DNA from: Terrirubrum flagellatum
Lineage (GTDB): Bacteria > Pseudomonadota > Alphaproteobacteria > Rhizobiales > Beijerinckiaceae
Assembly (NCBI RefSeq): GCF_022059845.1
Contig: NZ_CP091851.1
Location: forward strand, 434,001-498,000
Reading direction: 5' to 3'
Length of the DNA: 64,000 bases
Both the position numbers and the translations under genes were made by a program. The notes beneath the pieces are model-generated. The model saw only the letters and a program-made list of their open reading frames with translations, did not search any database and had not been told where the DNA came from. Below, piece after piece: positions 34,255 through 41,537 of the stretch (the first letter of the stretch is position 1; every line of letters starts with the position of its first letter).

Positions 34255-35949
34255 ATGAGCGCCGCGCCGTCCCTGACAGGAGAAGCCGCCCGGGCCTGGT
34301 TCGCCTCCTATCCCCAGGGCGTGCCGCACGAGATCGACGTCGTCGGCGCCGGCACCATCGTCGATCGGCTGAACCAGAGCTTCGTCACTTACGCCGGCCG
34401 CGAGGCCTATGAGAGCTTCGGCGTCTCCGTCACCTTCGGCTTCATCGCGGCGGAGGCGAAGAAATTCGCGGGCTATTTGCAGGCGCAGGGGCTTGAGAAG
34501 GGCGACCGCGTCGCGCTGATGATGCCGAACGTGATGGCCTATCCCATCGCGCTGTTCGGCACGCTGCTCGCCGGCTGCACCGTGGTCAACGTCAACCCGC
34601 TCTACACGCCGCGCGAGCTCATCCACCAGCTCAATGATTCCGGCGCGCGCATCCTCGTCGTGCTGGAGAATTTCGCCCATGTCGCCGAGGAGGCTCTCAC
34701 CGAAACCAAGCTCGACCGCGTGGTGATCGCATCCGCCGGCGACGCCATCGGCTTCAAGGGCGTGATCGTTTCCCTCGTCGCGCGCTATGTGAAGAAGCTG
34801 GTGCCGGCCTATTCAATTTCCATCGCCACGAGCTTCAAGAAGGCGCTCGCCGATGGCGCGAAGCGCGGCTTCAAACCCGTCGCAATCGAGCGCGAGGACG
34901 TCGCCTTCCTGCAATATACCGGCGGCACCACGGGCGTCTCCAAGGGCGCGACGCTGACCCATTCCAACGTCGCCTCCAACATCGCGCAGACCGGCGCCTG
35001 GTTCTCGGCCGCGATGGGCAAGACCGACGGCCAGCCCGTGATGGTGACCGCGCTGCCGCTCTATCACATCTATGCGCTGACCTGCTGCTGCTTCTATCTC
35101 CTGTCGCTTGGCGGCAAGTGCCTGCTGATCGCCAATCCGCGCGATATTCCCGGCTTCATCGCGACGCTGAGACATTCGCGCTTCACCTGCTTCTCCGGCG
35201 TCAACACGCTCTACAACGCGCTCGCCAATCACCCCGACATCGGCAAGGTGGACTTCTCGAAGCTGGTGATGTGCTCGGCCGGCGGCATGGCGATGCAGTC
35301 GGCTGTCGCGAAGAAATGGAAGGAGATTTCGGGCGTTCCCGTCGTCGAGGGCTACGGCCTCTCCGAGACCTCGCCGGTGCTGACCACCAACCGGCCCGAC
35401 ATCGCCGATTTCACCGGCGGCATCGGCTTTCCCTTACCCTCCACCGACATCGTGATCCGCGACGAGGCGGGCGAAGACTGCGCAATCGGCGTCGCCGGCG
35501 AACTCTGCGCCAAGGGCCCGCAGGTGATGAAGGGCTACTGGAACCGGCCCGACGAGACCGCGAAGGCGATGACGCCGGACGGTTATTTCAGGACCGGCGA
35601 CATCGCGCTGATGAATGCGGACGGCTCGTTCAGGATCGTCGATCGCCTCAAAGACATGATCATCGTGTCGGGCTTTAACGTCTATCCCAACGAGGTGGAG
35701 GAGGTGATCGCGCAGAATCCCTCGGTGCTTGAGGTGGCGGTGGTCGGCGCGCCCGATCCGCATTCGGGCGAGACGGTCGTGGCGCATGTGGTCAAGCGCG
35801 AGCCTACGCTCACCGAGCAGGAGCTGCGCGACTTCTGCAAGGAGAACCTCACGCCCTACAAGGTGCCGCGACGCGTGGTGTTCCACGACGCGCTGCCGAA
35901 GACGAATGTGGGGAAGGTGTTGAGGCGCGCGTTGCGGGAGAAGGCGTGA
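34255..35949 (+). CDS. long-chain fatty-acid-CoA ligase (AMP-forming)
   Basis: A 564-residue ANL-superfamily ligase. ATP-binding core 'YTGGTTGVSKGATLTHSN', the 'GYGLSETSPVLTT' motif and the hinge block 'YFRTGDIALMNADGSFRIVDRLKDMIIVSGFNVYPNEVEEV' are complete, and the C-terminal Lys is in 'PKTNVGKVLRRAL'. Sequence and length fit FadD. It activates fatty acids to acyl-CoA for beta-oxidation or lipid synthesis. GAGGAGGG lies upstream. It is transcribed alone. Confidence 0.9.
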   Translation: MSAAPSLTGEAARAWFASYPQGVPHEIDVVGAGTIVDRLNQSFVTYAGREAYESFGVSVTFGFIAAEAKKFAGYLQAQGLEKGDRVALMMPNVMAYPIALFGTLLAGCTVVNVNPLYTPRELIHQLNDSGARILVVLENFAHVAEEALTETKLDRVVIASAGDAIGFKGVIVSLVARYVKKLVPAYSISIATSFKKALADGAKRGFKPVAIEREDVAFLQYTGGTTGVSKGATLTHSNVASNIAQTGAWFSAAMGKTDGQPVMVTALPLYHIYALTCCCFYLLSLGGKCLLIANPRDIPGFIATLRHSRFTCFSGVNTLYNALANHPDIGKVDFSKLVMCSAGGMAMQSAVAKKWKEISGVPVVEGYGLSETSPVLTTNRPDIADFTGGIGFPLPSTDIVIRDEAGEDCAIGVAGELCAKGPQVMKGYWNRPDETAKAMTPDGYFRTGDIALMNADGSFRIVDRLKDMIIVSGFNVYPNEVEEVIAQNPSVLEVAVVGAPDPHSGETVVAHVVKREPTLTEQELRDFCKENLTPYKVPRRVVFHDALPKTNVGKVLRRALREKA

Positions 35950-35995
35950 GGCTCGCCTTTCACCACGGCATTCTCATTCTCCCTCCAGATGTCGT

Positions 35996-36014
35996 CGCCG
36001 GGCTTGACCCGGCG
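35996..36014. repeat. CGCCGGG-CTTGA-CCCGGCG palindrome
   Basis: A perfect 7-bp stem-loop in the 204-bp gap before the methyltransferase. It belongs to a palindrome commonly seen in rhizobial intergenic DNA. It is the last high-GC feature before the AT-richer cassette, so it marks its left edge approximately. Confidence 0.55.
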
Positions 36015-36153
36015 ATCCAGTCATTCGTGCCAAAGATGCTATCATCAAGGCTGATTCGGGGGCTTCTTTCATCTAGATAGCCAATACGAAAATTTTGAAG
36101 GCTGACAGCTCTGGAATTTGTAGCAGTCGGATACCGCGGGCAGGGGAATCAAA

Positions 36154-37104
36154 GTGGGGCGAAAGAAAGCTGGTTTGGCCGAGAACTCGCTAAAGCATCG
36201 ATTCTTGCAAGGCGACGCTCTTAAGGCGCTTGATAAAGTCGACAACAACTCTTGTCGGTTGGTCATAACATCGCCTCCTTACAATATCGGGAAAGAGTAT
36301 GAGCGAGATCGCCGTCGCTCATTAGAGGAGTACGTTGAGTGGCTGAAACCGATTGTCGAAAAAGCCTGCAAGAAAGTGGCCGATGATGGTCACCTTTGCT
36401 GGCAAGTTGGGAACTATGTGAACAACGGAGAAGTCTTCCCACTGGACTATTATTTCTACCAGATGATCACCGCACAGGGGTTTCGCCTTCGCAATAGAAT
36501 AATTTGGCATTTCAATTTCGGTTTGCATGCGACAAAGCGATTTTCTGGGCGTTACGAAACGCTGCTCTGGTTTACGAGGTCGGAGAAGTACCATTTTAAT
36601 TTGGAGTCTGTGCGAATCCCTCAGTTGTACCCGGGCAAACGTCATTCGAAGGGGCGCGCGGGCAAGGCAGGTCTACCAAGTGGCAATCCTCGTGGAAAAA
36701 ATCCCTCCGACTTTTGGGTTTTTGACCCTGAAGAAGCGCTGAAGAACAACGCTGTTTGGGAGCTTCCGAATGTAAAGGCAAATCATCCGGAGAAAACTTT
36801 TCACCCTTGCCAATTTCCAAGCGAACTCGTCGAGCGGTGCTTGCTGGCGCTGACGGAGCAGGGAGACACGATTTTGGATCCATTTGTGGGAGTTGGTACA
36901 ACCGTTCTCGCTGCTGCTAAGCATAGTCGCAGTGCAATTGGCATCGATCAAAGCGAGAAATATCTCAAGTTGGCGCGCAAACGACTCTCTGATCTTCGCG
37001 CTGGTCGTTTGATCACGCGTCCTCTCGGCAAGCCCGTAAGGAGGCCGAAAGCCGGCGAGCGGGTCGCGACCATACCTACAGAGTGGAAAGTCGCTGCTGA
37101 GTAG
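36154..37104 (+). CDS. beta-class DNA methyltransferase (N6-adenine or N4-cytosine)
   Basis: A 316-residue site-specific DNA methyltransferase. Motif IV TSPPYN is at residues 39-44 and the SAM-binding motif I DPFVGVGTT at 242-250. This is the beta-class order, and the Thr-Ser-Pro-Pro-Tyr form allows either N4-cytosine or N6-adenine methylation. It starts at GTG behind CAGGGGAATCAA. Base composition is clearly lower in GC than in neighbours. It is followed after 18 bp by the DGQHR protein, so they form one unit. No matching restriction endonuclease is recognised. Confidence 0.9.
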   Translation: MGRKKAGLAENSLKHRFLQGDALKALDKVDNNSCRLVITSPPYNIGKEYERDRRRSLEEYVEWLKPIVEKACKKVADDGHLCWQVGNYVNNGEVFPLDYYFYQMITAQGFRLRNRIIWHFNFGLHATKRFSGRYETLLWFTRSEKYHFNLESVRIPQLYPGKRHSKGRAGKAGLPSGNPRGKNPSDFWVFDPEEALKNNAVWELPNVKANHPEKTFHPCQFPSELVERCLLALTEQGDTILDPFVGVGTTVLAAAKHSRSAIGIDQSEKYLKLARKRLSDLRAGRLITRPLGKPVRRPKAGERVATIPTEWKVAAE

Positions 37105-37122
37105 TCGATTTGGGGGCAGGGA

Positions 37123-38853
37123 ATGGCGACAAAGAGAGCAGCAAAAAAGAAACGCAAGCCGAAATTGAGCGTAGAGGAATTGAAAGCTCGCAAGCTTAAG
37201 CGAGATCATATTCGCGCGGCGCGAACAATTTTTCGAAACTTAGGATTTGATAGAGTAAGCGAGGTAGCAGGGGCGGAAGTCGCTTTTGAAAATCAGCGAG
37301 GTGAATTTGACGATGCTTACATTCGTGAGAATGTAATCATTCTTCTCGAATACACCACCTCGAAGTCGGAAAACGTCAAAGACCACTTAAAGAAGAAGAA
37401 AATATTTTTTTCAAAAATTGCGCAGAATCCTGTGGGGTTCATTGCGGAATTGAGATCGCGGCTTCCAAAATTTGAGGCGCGCCTAGCTGATAAATTTCAC
37501 GATGACAAATATATCCTTAAGATGCTGTATTGCTCGCGCAACTCTTTCGATGACGGCGTGAAGAAAGTTGTCGACGAACCGGTTTATCTCGACTTCCCGA
37601 TTTTGAAGTATTTTGAGAAGCTCGCCAGCACGATCAAGATATCCGCTCTAAACGAATTTCTAGAGTTTGTCGGGATCGCCAATGGCCAGATCGCCGAAAA
37701 CGGGAAATTTCCGAAGAGAGATTCCTCTGATGTTTACGAGGGCTCCATTCTTCCAGAATCATCTTCGGGTTTCCCGCGCGGATACAAAGTGGTGTCATTT
37801 TACGCTGATCCTGCAGCTCTTCTCTTGCGCGCGTATGTTCTTCGGAGCTCTGGCTGGCGGGGCTCGCGACAGGCATATCAGCGGATGCTGCGCGGTTCGA
37901 AGATAGAGGCGATCAGAAAGAATTTGAAAGCTGAGAAACGTGTCTTTGTAAACAACTTGATTGCGACCTTGCCTAATGATGCCCATCCCGTCGATCAAAG
38001 CGGCAAAACAATCGACATCACGAAGCTAACCAATACCTCTAAGGTTACGATACGTCTTCCATCTTGCACAAATTCTGTGGGCTTAATTGACGGACAGCAC
38101 AGGCTTTATTCTTACTATGAGTCTAGAAATGACGACCTGAGAATTGCGACTTTAAGGCATCAACAAAATCTCTTGGTGACTGGGATCATTTATCCGCCCC
38201 AAATTACTCAGTCGGAAAAAGATCGGTTTGAAGCGGATTTGTTTTTGTCGATCAACGCCAATCAAACAAACGCGTCGACTGCGCTAAAGCAAGATATTGA
38301 GGTAGTGCTTCGGCCATTTAGTCCGACAGCGATCGGTCGGGAAATAATGAGACGGCTGGCAGGCAGCAGCCCGCTCGCGGGCCACGTTGAGACTTATTTT
38401 TTTGACAAGGGAAAACTCAAGACTAGCTCGATAGTTAGCTATGGTCTCGGGCCGTTGATCAAACTTGGCGGTGAAGATTCCTTATTCAGAATATTCAAGC
38501 ATCCGGAGAAAGATAATATCGCCAGCGGCGGTTCGGAGGCCGGCCTCGAAGCTTATTTGCAGTTCGCAACAAGCACGATCAATGCGTTTCTCGGAGCTGT
38601 AAAAGATAATGTTGATCAGTCTCGTTGGACATCCGATAGGGCGGTCAATGATCGCTTGCTGACTGTGACATATGTGAACAGCTTCTTGATTGTGCTGCGC
38701 TTGCTAATTCAGGCTCGCCAAAAGATACGACACGACTCTCTAAAGGAATCTCTGAAGGGGCTGAACAGCTTCAATTTCAAGTCTTATCGGTCTAGCCAAT
38801 ATGGAAGAATGGCCGAGAAGATATTCGAAAAGTATTTTGATGAGGCGACGTGA
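37123..38853 (+). CDS. DGQHR-domain protein with nuclease-like N-terminus
   Basis: A 576-residue protein. The DGQHR signature (residues 323-327, within 'LIDGQHRLYSYYES') and the later 'INANQTNASTALKQDI' are typical of the DGQHR/DndB-like family found with DNA-modification and phage-defence genes. The N-terminal part (about 40-100) has 'GEFDDAYIRENVIILLEYTTSK', which has the layout of a PD-(D/E)XK nuclease core, but with E-Y-T instead of E-x-K. A Lys-rich stretch follows. AT-rich codons mark it as acquired. Together with the methyltransferase it may form a modification-linked defence pair; this is inference. Confidence 0.8.
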   Translation: MATKRAAKKKRKPKLSVEELKARKLKRDHIRAARTIFRNLGFDRVSEVAGAEVAFENQRGEFDDAYIRENVIILLEYTTSKSENVKDHLKKKKIFFSKIAQNPVGFIAELRSRLPKFEARLADKFHDDKYILKMLYCSRNSFDDGVKKVVDEPVYLDFPILKYFEKLASTIKISALNEFLEFVGIANGQIAENGKFPKRDSSDVYEGSILPESSSGFPRGYKVVSFYADPAALLLRAYVLRSSGWRGSRQAYQRMLRGSKIEAIRKNLKAEKRVFVNNLIATLPNDAHPVDQSGKTIDITKLTNTSKVTIRLPSCTNSVGLIDGQHRLYSYYESRNDDLRIATLRHQQNLLVTGIIYPPQITQSEKDRFEADLFLSINANQTNASTALKQDIEVVLRPFSPTAIGREIMRRLAGSSPLAGHVETYFFDKGKLKTSSIVSYGLGPLIKLGGEDSLFRIFKHPEKDNIASGGSEAGLEAYLQFATSTINAFLGAVKDNVDQSRWTSDRAVNDRLLTVTYVNSFLIVLRLLIQARQKIRHDSLKESLKGLNSFNFKSYRSSQYGRMAEKIFEKYFDEAT

Positions 38854-38877
38854 TTTCGATGAGGCCGTATCGCGGCC

Positions 38878-38906
38878 TTGACATCCTCAGAATAAATTCC
38901 TATACT
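38878..38906 (+). promoter_or_regulatory. near-consensus sigma-70 promoter
   Basis: TTGACA (38878-38883), exactly 17 bp, then TATACT (38901-38906). It is the best promoter match seen in the window. It starts 25 bp after the DGQHR stop and no ORF with a ribosome site begins within 300 bp, so it likely drives an RNA. Confidence 0.85.
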
Positions 38907-38912
38907 CGCTCC

Positions 38913-39180
38913 TGTCTCTGCTCGCTCAAGGGCCGTCCGGGTCAGGACCGCGCGGGAGCAGGGAGCGGATCTTGCGGGTTTTCGCCATGACCTGGCGGCG
39001 AGAACTCTCGAGGGCCTCGGACAGCACGCCCGCCTGACACTAGGATCAGGCCGCCCGAACGGGCCTTAAGCGGTACGCCGCGGAGAGCGTGCGACTCAGG
39101 GGTCGAAAACCGCGCCGGGAGCGCAGCGAAGCGTTCCCAACTTACCTCTGGCCTTCGCGCCTCGCGGCGCTCCCGGCCTC
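38913..39180 (+). ncRNA. structured non-coding RNA candidate
   Basis: Downstream of the near-consensus promoter the sequence folds into nested stems. GCGGGTTTTCG (38974-38984) pairs with CGAAAACCGC (39104-39113). Inside, GCACGC (39024-39029) pairs with GCGTGC (39087-39092) and encloses three hairpins: CCTGA/TCAGG, GCCC/GGGC and GCGG-TACG-CCGC. Immediately after comes a perfect 11-bp stem (39114-39124 with 39167-39177). No Rfam family was recognised. It fills most of the 395-bp gap between 38854 and 39248. Ends are approximate. It could also be a long leader of the following gene. Confidence 0.6.
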
Positions 39181-39248
39181 CCGATTTCGGCGTCTCAGGC
39201 CCGCTGGCGCGGGGACGATCCCGCGCGCCCGCCGCAACTGAAGGAGAG

Positions 39249-39635
39249 ATGATGAAACGCTCAGTCCCCGGTGAAATGTCCGAAGCGCAGTTCCGGCGCT
39301 TAAGCGATCAACTCGGCCTCGCGGAGGTCTGTCCACGCGGCCCCTGCCTGCGCCACAAAAATTGTCGCGGCGCCGGGAATGCGCTCGATGATTACGCCTG
39401 CTGGCGCATCGTGCGCGACATGAAGCGCGCGCGGCTGGAAAAGCGGGACGGGGAGGAGGATGTGGAGGCGATGGCGGCGGACTATCAGCGCCAGCTCATG
39501 CGGATGCTCGATGGCCTGCGCGCGGAATCGCAGCCGGGACGGAGCGAGGAGGCCGCGCCGGAGGTGGCCGATGAAGCGCTTTGCGAAGAGCGCGTTGAAG
39601 CAACGCGCGAGGGGCCAATGGTGAGGGGATTGTGA
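39249..39635 (+). CDS. hypothetical protein with cysteine-rich motif
   Basis: A 128-residue protein starting MMKRSVPGEMSEAQFRRL behind GAAGGAGAG. A compact 'CPRGPCLRHKNCRG' motif and a later Cys ('YACWRIV') could bind zinc. The rest is acidic and disordered at the end. No family is recognised. It lies downstream of the structured RNA and may share its transcript. The second ATG three bases later is an equal start. Followed by dispersed repeats. Confidence 0.65.
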   Translation: MMKRSVPGEMSEAQFRRLSDQLGLAEVCPRGPCLRHKNCRGAGNALDDYACWRIVRDMKRARLEKRDGEEDVEAMAADYQRQLMRMLDGLRAESQPGRSEEAAPEVADEALCEERVEATREGPMVRGL

Positions 39636-39660
39636 GGGCGTCTGCGCTTGTGATTGGCGC

Positions 39661-39975
39661 CCTCTCCCCTCGCGGGAGAGGGTGTCGCGCGAATGCGCGA
39701 CGGGTGAGGGGGCAACGCCATATGTCGAGGTTCCCCCTCATCCGTCGCTGCGCCAAGCGCAGCGACACCTTCTCCCGCGAGGGGAGAAGGAGGGCTGTAT
39801 CTGGAAGTGCGAGGAGAGTTGTGAGCGGGCGTGAGAAGCGGCTCACCCTCCCCTTGAGGGGGAGGGTCGATCCGAGCGTCAGCGAGGATCGGGGTGGGGT
39901 GAGCGAGGCTCATACACCCCACCCCGCTCGTCGTCGCGCTGCGCGCGCCGTCTCGCGACCCTCCCCCCGGAGGGT
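39661..39975. repeat. cluster of palindromic intergenic repeats
   Basis: The first two units (39661-39715 and 39733-39790) are the same inverted pair as at 2202-2339, with CCTCTCCC...GGGAGAGG and CGCGCGAATGCGCG stems. A third, different unit follows (39841-39975) built on CACCCTCCCC...GGGGAGGGT and TGGGGTG/CACCCCA arms. It fills the 348-bp gap; no gene is seen. Confidence 0.78.
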
Positions 39976-39983
39976 GGGCGCGT

Positions 39984-41537
39984 TCAATCCAGCGCCGCGG
40001 CCGCCGAATGCCCGTCAGCCTGAGGCTTCTTCGCCTTGCTGAGCAGCAGCACCAGCGGCAGGCAGCAGAGCGCCAGCGCCATCATGAGATAGTAATCGTT
40101 GGCGTAGGCGATGATCGTCGCCTGGCGCGTGATCTCGTTGTCGAGCGATGCGCGGCCGGCGGTCGTCGCGAGGTCCCAGTATTTGCTCACCGTCGCGTCG
40201 CGCAGCGCGCTGTTGAACGGCGTGACATGCTCGACGAGCTGCGCATGCATCACCTGCGTCGAGCGGCCGAGCAGGAAGATCACGATCGAGATGCCGATCG
40301 AGGAGCCGATGTTGCGGATGAGGCTGAACAACGCCGCGCCCTGCACGCGATATTTGGGATCGAGCGTGGAGAAGGCGACTGTCGAGAGCGGCACGAACAG
40401 AAAGCCCAGACCGAAGCCCTGCATGACGCCGGTGCGGATGATCGTCCATTTGTCGACGTCGGGCGTGAAGCCGGACGTCTCATAGAGCGATGTTGCGAGC
40501 AGGCAGAGGCCGAGAGTGAGAAACACACGCGGATCGACCTTGCCGGTCAACCGGCCGATGATGCTCATCGCGACCATGGTGCCAAGCCCGCGCGGGGCGA
40601 CGATCAATCCCGCCTGCAGCACGGGATAACCCATCAAGGATTGCAGGAACGGCGTCTGCAGCGCGAGCGTCGAGAACAGAATCATGCCGACGACGAACAT
40701 GAAGCCGACGCCGACCGCATAGTTGCGGTCGCGGAACATGGCGGGATCGATGTAGGGCTCTCTCGACGTGAAGGTGTGGACGATGAAGAGATAGAAGGCG
40801 AGCGCCGCGATCGCGCCTTCGACGATGATCTCGAGCGAGGAGAACCAGTCGAGCTGTTCGCCGCGGTCGAGCATCATCTGCAGCGAGCCGATGAAGATGG
40901 AAAGCGTGAGGAAGCCGGTCCAGTCGAGCGGCGCGCGCGACAGTTTCGACTCGGAGAGCGCGGCCGACAGTCCGACCATCGTCAGAATGCCGACCGGCAG
41001 GTTGATGTAGAAGACGTAGCGCCAGTTGTAGCTCTCGGTGAGCAGGCCGCCGAGCGTGGGCCCAAGGATCGGGCCGACCATCACGCCCATGCCCCACAGC
41101 GCCATGGCCGAGCCGTGCCGCTCCTTGGGATAGGAATCGAGCAGCACCGATTGCGACAGCGGCACGAGCGGCGCGCCGAAGATTCCCTGCAGCAGACGGA
41201 ACAGCACCATCTGTTCGAGCGTCTGCGCCGCGCCGCAGAGCAGCGACGCGAAGGTGAATCCGCCGACCGCGATGAGAAAGATCTTCTTGCGGCCGAAGCG
41301 GGCGGTGAGAAATCCCGTCAGCGGCATCGCGATCGCCGACGACACGATATAGGAGGTGAGCACCCAGGAAATCTGATCCTGCGTCGCTGACAGCGACCCC
41401 TGCATGTAGGGCAGCGCGACATTGGCGATCGTCGTATCGAGCGCCTGCATGATCGTCGCGAGCATCACGCACGCCGTGATGACGGCGCGGTTCGGTTCGG
41501 CCTTGGCGGGCGTCTGCGTGATCGCCGCGGTGGACAT
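39984..41537 (-). CDS. emrB: EmrB/QacA-type multidrug efflux transporter
   Basis: A 517-residue, 14-helix DHA2 pump. Hallmarks are 'IMQALDTTIANVALPYMQGSLSATQDQISWVLTSYIV', 'LCGAAQTLEQMVLFRLLQGIFGAPLVPLSQ' and 'GPTLGGLLTESYNWRYVFYINLPVG'. It is the inner-membrane part of a tripartite pump. It follows the emrA-like gene by 22 bp and the marR gene further upstream, giving the order marR-emrA-emrB on the minus strand. An outer-membrane channel is expected elsewhere. Confidence 0.92.
   Translation of the reverse strand: MSTAAITQTPAKAEPNRAVITACVMLATIMQALDTTIANVALPYMQGSLSATQDQISWVLTSYIVSSAIAMPLTGFLTARFGRKKIFLIAVGGFTFASLLCGAAQTLEQMVLFRLLQGIFGAPLVPLSQSVLLDSYPKERHGSAMALWGMGVMVGPILGPTLGGLLTESYNWRYVFYINLPVGILTMVGLSAALSESKLSRAPLDWTGFLTLSIFIGSLQMMLDRGEQLDWFSSLEIIVEGAIAALAFYLFIVHTFTSREPYIDPAMFRDRNYAVGVGFMFVVGMILFSTLALQTPFLQSLMGYPVLQAGLIVAPRGLGTMVAMSIIGRLTGKVDPRVFLTLGLCLLATSLYETSGFTPDVDKWTIIRTGVMQGFGLGFLFVPLSTVAFSTLDPKYRVQGAALFSLIRNIGSSIGISIVIFLLGRSTQVMHAQLVEHVTPFNSALRDATVSKYWDLATTAGRASLDNEITRQATIIAYANDYYLMMALALCCLPLVLLLSKAKKPQADGHSAAAALD

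Follow-up and report, generated by a model that had tools for sequence, protein, structure and literature searches.

Several described systems share parts with a two-gene locus of Terrirubrum flagellatum that lies in a window of 64,000 nucleotides (the whole stretch analyzed; positions 434,001 to 498,000 of contig NZ_CP091851.1, assembly GCF_022059845.1). In this locus, a gene for a beta-class amino-methyltransferase is followed by one for a protein of 576 amino acids (aa) carrying a DGQHR motif, here called the DGQHR protein. Type II restriction-modification systems with an endonuclease of the BglII/BstYI family (PF09195) have a methyltransferase of the same family and a directly adjacent partner gene. 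Their endonuclease, however, is about 200 aa long, whereas the 576-aa partner in our pair joins an N-terminus of predicted PD-(D/E)XK fold to a DGQHR/ParB-like domain. The portions of the reports on GmrSD (PMC4619093) and SspE (PMC13251355) that were available describe a nuclease combined with a ParB/Srx-like domain that bears a DGQ(Q/H)R signature, a plan predicted for our protein too, but the nuclease of those systems is of the HNH type; the N-terminal domain here is predicted to be PD-(D/E)XK-like, without a match to DUF262, DUF1524, or HNH, and its gene is paired with that of a base methyltransferase. Among working systems the best analogy is SspE, in which recognition leads to GTP hydrolysis and licenses the HNH nuclease (PMC13251355, available portion). 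DndB is described as an ATP-dependent repressor that regulates phosphorothioation, and DpdB, of the 7-deazaguanine systems, as an ATPase for base insertion (available portions of PMC10853773 and PMC12839542). Both share the DGQHR, QR, and FxxxN motifs with our protein, and their profiles match it weakly within residues 247 to 384; it nevertheless falls far below their cutoffs and differs in its extra N-terminal nuclease-fold domain and in its base methyltransferase partner.

We consider it likely that the pair is a mobile two-gene restriction-modification system in which the restriction protein has a new architecture. Two-gene restriction-modification is a known kind of system; the restriction protein is new as far as our searches show. 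No description of the pair was found in the searchable text of the open-licence PMC literature, a search outside of which lay subscription journals and REBASE, and the accessible text on TaqIII, paraMORC, and halobacterial systems does not describe it.

Both open reading frames (ORFs) are intact and lie 18 bp apart on the plus strand, as do all of the features located within them below. They stand where an earlier reading of the DNA from its letters alone (the sequence-only reading) had placed them, and its call of a beta-class enzyme agrees with the profile match and the motif order. The methyltransferase gene (36154..37104) has a GTG start and encodes 316 aa that match Pfam N6_N4_Mtase (PF01555) with 173.5 bits against a cutoff of 26.7. 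Its catalytic motif SPPY (residues 40 to 43; 36271..36282) is followed toward the C terminus by the S-adenosylmethionine-binding motif DPFVGVGTT (residues 242 to 250; 36877..36903), which gives the order SPPY and then DPFxGxG that, together with the profile match, defines the beta class. As a rule the SPPY motif goes with methylation of cytosine at N4, and the enzyme probably modifies this position, to judge from the motif. PADLOC 2.0.0 labels the methyltransferase MTase_II, and its sole match to the DGQHR protein (37123..38853) is a weak one to DpdB (22.4 bits). Defense surveys based on PADLOC would therefore probably miss the pair.

The pairing is conserved far beyond this genome. Scans with the single DGQHR protein sequence found nothing, but an alignment-based scan succeeded: a profile made from four DGQHR relatives found 66 loci on genome contigs, of which 64 could be evaluated (L069 and L071 begin at a contig edge). 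These loci were found through the DGQHR motifs and were thus not selected for pairing, and divergent relatives were missed; genes were called with a simple longest-ORF script, so some neighbors in GC-rich loci are possibly false. A methyltransferase gene was within 50 bp of the DGQHR gene or overlapped it in 60 of the 64 evaluable loci, which bears out the co-occurrence that the sequence-only reading had put forward as something to look for. It was upstream on the same strand in 56, downstream on the same strand in two (L057 and L073), and convergent in two (L048 and L054). In L033 the DGQHR gene is split and its first piece adjoins the methyltransferase, and in L032 the operon of the DGQHR gene includes the methyltransferase gene two genes away. 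The loci span the Pseudomonadota, Bacteroidota, Planctomycetota, Bacillota, Thermodesulfobacteriota, Nitrospirota, a metagenome-assembled genome of the Nanoarchaeota, and others. On viral contigs, a methyltransferase lay beside the DGQHR gene in all 7 loci, although three of these are copies, with L075, L076, and L077 equal in length and score to L019, L012, and the phage locus L007. The same was true of all four plasmid and phage matches (two rhizobial plasmids, a Spirosoma plasmid with one gene between the two, and Akkermansia phage Chantilly, where they converge). Beyond the nearest one per locus, the methyltransferase profile matched only 3 of the 884 genes in the 66 loci, one of them the other half of a split gene in L016. 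Searches of 385 genomes of the class returned, besides the copy in the window, two DGQHR proteins that are only distantly related (L002 and L003), the latter without a match to the methyltransferase profile in the surrounding 3.3 to 3.5 kb.

Adjacency also persists despite changes in the type of methyltransferase. Types were assigned from the motif and the length of the protein, with eight rows labeled by hand, and include SPPYN enzymes of about 315 aa, among them the window's, SPPYF enzymes of about 425 aa, and DPPYN enzymes of about 280 aa, besides further types. Placed on a DGQHR protein tree of 67 rows, the type labels, including "none," need 13 changes, against a minimum of 4 and a mean of 28.8 for shuffled labels. 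Within a type, distances between the DGQHR proteins correlate with those between their methyltransferases (r = 0.774 for 18 pairs and 0.863 for 34 pairs, with none of 2,000 permutations as high), a correlation that shared descent alone can partly explain. It could be supposed that an orphan methyltransferase and a DGQHR gene are merely traveling together on mobile DNA without a joint function, and their presence on plasmids, on viral contigs, and in a low-GC stretch missing in a relative speaks for this. We regard it as very improbable, since adjacency within 50 bp survives changes of type and gene order across phyla and a scan of the nearest neighbors listed no Pfam family with more than four matches. 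The neighbor scan covered 121 of the 122 nearest neighbors of at least 150 aa (the one omitted is a piece of L033's own DGQHR gene), and no third conserved gene emerged: among the 25 families listed per scan, no Pfam family occurred more than four times (phage integrase) and no PADLOC family more than three times. The most recurrent neighbor by BLAST clustering was a family of proteins of 192 to 254 aa near five loci.

The role of the DGQHR protein is suggested mainly by the kind of gene that takes its place elsewhere. Relatives of the window's methyltransferase were gathered, regardless of whether a DGQHR gene was present, from plasmids (13 records), genomes of the class (16 of 385), and viral sequences (the best 80 of 297 matches). 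Eight of the plasmid records were fetched; H5, H6, and H8 were already among the DGQHR loci, and H13 and H16 were left out. Methyltransferases scoring above 300 bits were present in 81 loci; L113 and L114, duplicates of L145 and L146 that had entered by way of the DGQHR profile, were set aside, leaving 79. Within 300 bp, the partner was a BglII-type gene in 39, a DGQHR gene in 5 (the window's own, L144, L145, L146, and L153), and neither in 35, in a count that retains near copies (five of the 39 come from genome G300) and in which some loci with neither are cut by contig ends. In L123, one of the loci counted as having neither, the adjacent gene is of the BglII type but lies beyond the start of the circular plasmid record. 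All 10 BglII-type genes submitted to Pfam passed the cutoff of PF09195; two of the ten, L116 and L118, were seeds of the BglII-type profile.

A methyltransferase tree of 81 rows (34 BglII paired, 21 DGQHR paired, 25 with neither, and 1 with both; L016, L020, L031, L117, L123, same-contig repeats, and 13 near copies omitted) needs three changes of the DGQHR label, at least two of which are forced by well-supported branches. The window's methyltransferase falls in a clade of 18 rows that is purely DGQHR paired (support 100/99). The Spirosoma plasmid (L006:15173-17271) carries in a row a methyltransferase gene, a BglII-type gene (PF09195), and the start of a DGQHR gene, which the end of the record cuts; on the tree it clusters with L066 and L078, rows that have only the DGQHR gene, beside L147, which is BglII paired. 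It looks as if one restriction gene had taken over from another, L006 being a possible intermediate. Since BglII-type genes stand in the same slot beside related methyltransferases, the DGQHR protein seems to occupy the slot of the restriction enzyme, and it is mainly because of this exchange that we call it, with good confidence, the restriction half of the pair. For the 425-aa type of methyltransferase the argument gives no information: only five viral loci were available, the two closest with a DGQHR gene.

The N-terminal domain of the DGQHR protein (residues 12 to 186; 37156..37680) is predicted to have a nuclease fold. AlphaFold2 models were built with a 64-row alignment of DGQHR proteins, and the predicted local distance difference test (pLDDT) and predicted template modeling (pTM) scores were 90.6 and 0.87 for the full-length protein, a prediction that the sequence-only reading had recommended, and 95.2 and 0.90 for residues 12 to 186 alone. 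In the model this domain has the predicted alpha-beta-beta-beta-alpha-beta core of the PD-(D/E)XK superfamily. Its best matches in VIA-align are restriction enzymes and nucleases of that fold: Nt.BspD6I (Z 9.0; root mean square deviation [rmsd] 3.6 over 146 aligned residues), the small subunit of R.BspD6I (Z 8.9, rmsd 3.3, 132 aligned), AF1548 (Z 8.8, rmsd 3.2, 115 aligned), and BstEII (Z 8.2, rmsd 4.0, 135 aligned), with FokI lower (Z 7.6, rmsd 5.1, 145 aligned). The nuclease-like layout that had been read from the letters thus reappears as a predicted fold.

Conservation points to a set of candidate active-site residues. The alignment of 67 DGQHR proteins omits the distant L002 and L003, the fragments L006, L033, L064, L069, and L071, and the copies L001, L008, and L075 to L077. 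All 67 share D63 (37309..37311), N70, E76, T78, and H88, and 66 of them share K92. At the canonical ExK position stands E76-Y77-T78 (37348..37356), exactly the E-Y-T in place of E-x-K that had been reported from the letters; with E76 and T78 invariant in all 67 proteins, the window's included, this is by its conservation not a decayed site. In the model, D63 and E76 are suited to serve as the fold's two acidic residues, T78 takes the place expected of the lysine, and H88 and K92 (37384..37398) lie on the next predicted helix (residues 82 to 101), which follows the E76 strand. The cap-snatching endonucleases of influenza A and Hantaan viruses likewise have acidic residues on strands and a lysine from the following helix; the available text of PMC4909276 gives the lysine as coming from the helix (Hantaan K124 and influenza K134) or from a strand (La Crosse K94). 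These are RNA endonucleases of viral polymerases, in which they differ from our protein, and common descent is not claimed; Foldseek matches to arenavirus domains were weak. As such enzymes use a helix lysine, ExT together with a helix lysine is compatible with catalysis, and we lean toward K92 as the displaced catalytic lysine, replacing that of ExK from the helix.

The center of the protein (residues about 210 to 382; 37750..38268) is a DGQHR domain. The DGQHR signature is at residues 323 to 327 (38089..38103), precisely as first read, and D323 to R327, the QR pair Q253 and R254 (37879..37884), and F374 and N378 of FxxxN (38242..38256) are invariant in 67 of 67 proteins. These are the three motifs that the available portion of PMC4619093 lists for the DGQHR domain, and all of them are present. 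The NCBIfam model TIGR03187 matched residues 232 to 424 with 58.6 bits, 0.25 below its cutoff of 58.85, and matches 64 of 64 DGQHR homologs at an E value of 1e-5 or better. Searches of PHROGs gave no match to the protein, and NCBIfam gave only DGQHR-domain models below their cutoffs, among them TIGR04172 (DndB-like; 23.2 bits against 450) and NF041060 (DpdB; 21.2 bits against 300). In VIA-align, residues 214 to 382 resembled PadC (Z 7.2, rmsd 2.9, 99 aligned), Noc (Z 7.2, rmsd 2.6, 96 aligned), and ParB (Z 7.0, rmsd 2.9, 96 aligned), with Srx at Z 5.2. The predicted center looks ParB/Srx-like; the motifs agree with this, although Z scores of this size are also typical of common arrangements. 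ParB-N and KorB match more loosely (Z 6.2 each, with rmsd values of 6.0 and 5.7), up to residues 551 and 534, which hints that the predicted C-terminal helices (residues 383 to 576; 38269..38853), a candidate DNA-binding region, correspond to the DNA-binding part of ParB. The motif DGQQR of GmrS, like DGQHR, has been proposed to bind nucleoside triphosphate (NTP) (PMC4619093), and a DndB-like protein bound ATP and GTP (PMC12704722), in the portions of these papers available. The conserved NTP-type motifs make cleavage without NTP uncertain, and on balance we slightly favor control of the DGQHR protein by nucleotide binding, going by the motifs.

Two other roles for the protein were considered. 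As an accessory or regulator of the methyltransferase, it would merely bind DNA with its nuclease-like domain. The domain is indeed common to the DndB-like TIGR04172 and DpdB NF041060 families, whose models match 53 and 41 of the 64 members, respectively, at an E value of 1e-5 or better, and ExK is not intact. However, the window's protein is far below the cutoffs of both families, the invariant D63, E76, T78, and H88 exceed what binding needs, and the DGQHR gene stands in the slot that a BglII-type nuclease gene has beside related methyltransferases; we judge such a regulator improbable. The protein could also be a modification-sensing nuclease, activated by methylated host DNA or attacking otherwise modified phage DNA. 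In its plan, GmrSD joins a nuclease to an NTPase of the ParB/Srx fold, and SspE couples recognition of a mark to the licensing of its nuclease (PMC4619093 and PMC13251355, available portions). Yet no DUF262 or HNH match appeared in Pfam at E values up to 1, 60 of 64 loci have a methyltransferase no more than 50 bp away, and the exchange with BglII-type genes is in keeping with an enzyme for cutting unmodified sites, so that we give this role, too, a small chance.

A number of observations weigh against a restriction nuclease. The canonical D...(D/E)xK motif is absent, with ExT in 67 of 67 proteins. Z scores of 7 to 9 are close to those of common arrangements, and in the VIA-align list for the N-terminal domain the next entries are RNA polymerase subunits (Z 5 to 6). 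Foldseek gave no match with an E value of 0.001 or less for either model (full protein or N-terminal domain), on which account we regard the domain as a divergent member of the PD-(D/E)XK superfamily; the sequence of the DGQHR protein, searched against the PDB, yielded nothing usable (best E value, 0.37). The DGQHR proteins described so far, DndB and DpdB, are reported to be a regulator and an ATPase, not restriction nucleases. Two of the 64 loci (L056 and L059) have no adjacent methyltransferase, and 35 of the 79 methyltransferase relatives have neither partner in reach. In L006 the DGQHR protein is not the sole nuclease, as a BglII-type gene is also there, and the partner tree is unrooted and carries no direction of replacement.

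A restriction-modification system still appears to us the likely function of the pair. The sequence-only reading had offered a compact defense unit as an inference that should fall if the two genes did not co-occur in other genomes, if the N-terminus lacked a nuclease fold, or if composition matched the chromosome; all three were looked into, none of these outcomes occurred, and the inference gains support. We propose that the methyltransferase would mark the host's DNA at a short site, with N4 of cytosine as the probable position, and that the DGQHR protein would read unmarked copies of the site through its ParB/Srx-like domain and helical C-terminus. An NTP bound at the DGQHR/QR/FxxxN pocket would then license the N-terminal domain, with D63, E76, and the helix lysine K92, to cut incoming DNA. 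More tentatively, and as a possibility we judge somewhat less likely than not, the protein could belong to a nucleotide-switched class of restriction enzyme that is new: an NTP-dependent, ParB-like clamp with its own PD-(D/E)XK nuclease that loads at unmethylated sites and cuts, and that was swapped with ordinary Type II enzymes beside existing methyltransferases more than once.

If the pair is a restriction-modification system of the kind proposed, proteins annotated as "DGQHR domain-containing" beside apparently orphan methyltransferases would be missing restriction halves in many phyla, on plasmids, and in phages, and nucleotide switches of the ParB fold would extend to the restriction of unmethylated DNA. 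With DGQHR and BglII-type genes exchanged beside a single family of methyltransferases, a direct test becomes possible, in which two unrelated candidate cutters face the same kind of mark.

The genomic setting of the pair suggests an acquired element. GC content is 0.511 in the methyltransferase gene and 0.464 in the DGQHR gene, against 0.638 in the window, and GC content at third codon positions is 0.543 and 0.513, against 0.885, 0.886, 0.824, 0.844, and 0.833 in five flanking genes of greater length and against 0.752 in a 128-aa ORF at 39249. The pair is thus richer in A+T than its surroundings, as had been noticed at the outset, and its composition does not match them. The source genome (6.38 Mb in 4 contigs) contains a single match to the DGQHR protein and two to Pfam N6_N4_Mtase, the pair's copy and one elsewhere, and among 60 genomes (this one and 59 relatives) the DGQHR profile matched only this one. 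In G385, the only other genome of the genus among the 60, the upstream ligase gene and the downstream major facilitator superfamily gene adjoin. The DNA match to G385 stops at 35946 of the window and restarts at 40042, positions that are about 290 bp apart in G385, and the pair sits in the intervening stretch of about 4.1 kb (35947..40041) that has no counterpart there. Gain of this stretch here is likelier than loss in G385; no convincing direct repeat was found at its borders. The remark that no integrase or endonuclease lies beside it agrees with the neighbors inspected, although not every gene of the window was annotated. After the pair, positions 39114 to 39974 have a high GC content and several inverted repeats (arms of 19 to 29 nucleotides), and the 128-aa ORF within them (39249 to 39635) has no Pfam match.

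The recognition sites of BglII and BstYI led to RGATCY as a guess at the target, which was tried by site counts and set aside. AGATCT occurs 46 times in 424 kb of this genome against 125.9 expected (ratio, 0.37). Three relatives without a DGQHR gene, however, have ratios of 0.40, 0.49, and 0.52, and because of this similarity the count says nothing about the pair. The same sample strongly avoids CACGTG (3 against 35.7 expected) and CAGCTG (14 against 99.7). G385 avoids both as well (2 against 13.8 and 13 against 46.4), and two other members of the family do so much less.

Some further observations concern individual loci. The chromosome of G300 has five methyltransferase genes of equal score (L126, L140, L141, L142, and L143), each with a BglII-type neighbor, that of L141 shortened. 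The DGQHR gene of a Phyllobacterium locus (L004:7884-9710) carries the PLSDB label lmrP efflux pump, a predicted resistance gene, which looks false. In three Bacteroidota loci (L030:3061-9486, L046:3002-9484, and L032:3423-9452) the pair stands within a five-gene cluster that also holds a GHKL ATPase (HATPase_c_3 in L030), a protein of 291 to 300 aa, and one of 248 to 254 aa; the two smaller proteins have no Pfam match in L030, the methyltransferase of L032 is of a different type and in a different position, and relatives of the 254-aa protein also occur near L021 and L055. Other neighbors of the pair (L038:8975-11235, L040:8920-11799, and L046:9472-11760) include an AAA_21 ATPase and, after it, a gene whose endonuclease VII match is subthreshold, an MmeI-type enzyme, and an nSTAND3 protein with Mrr_cat.

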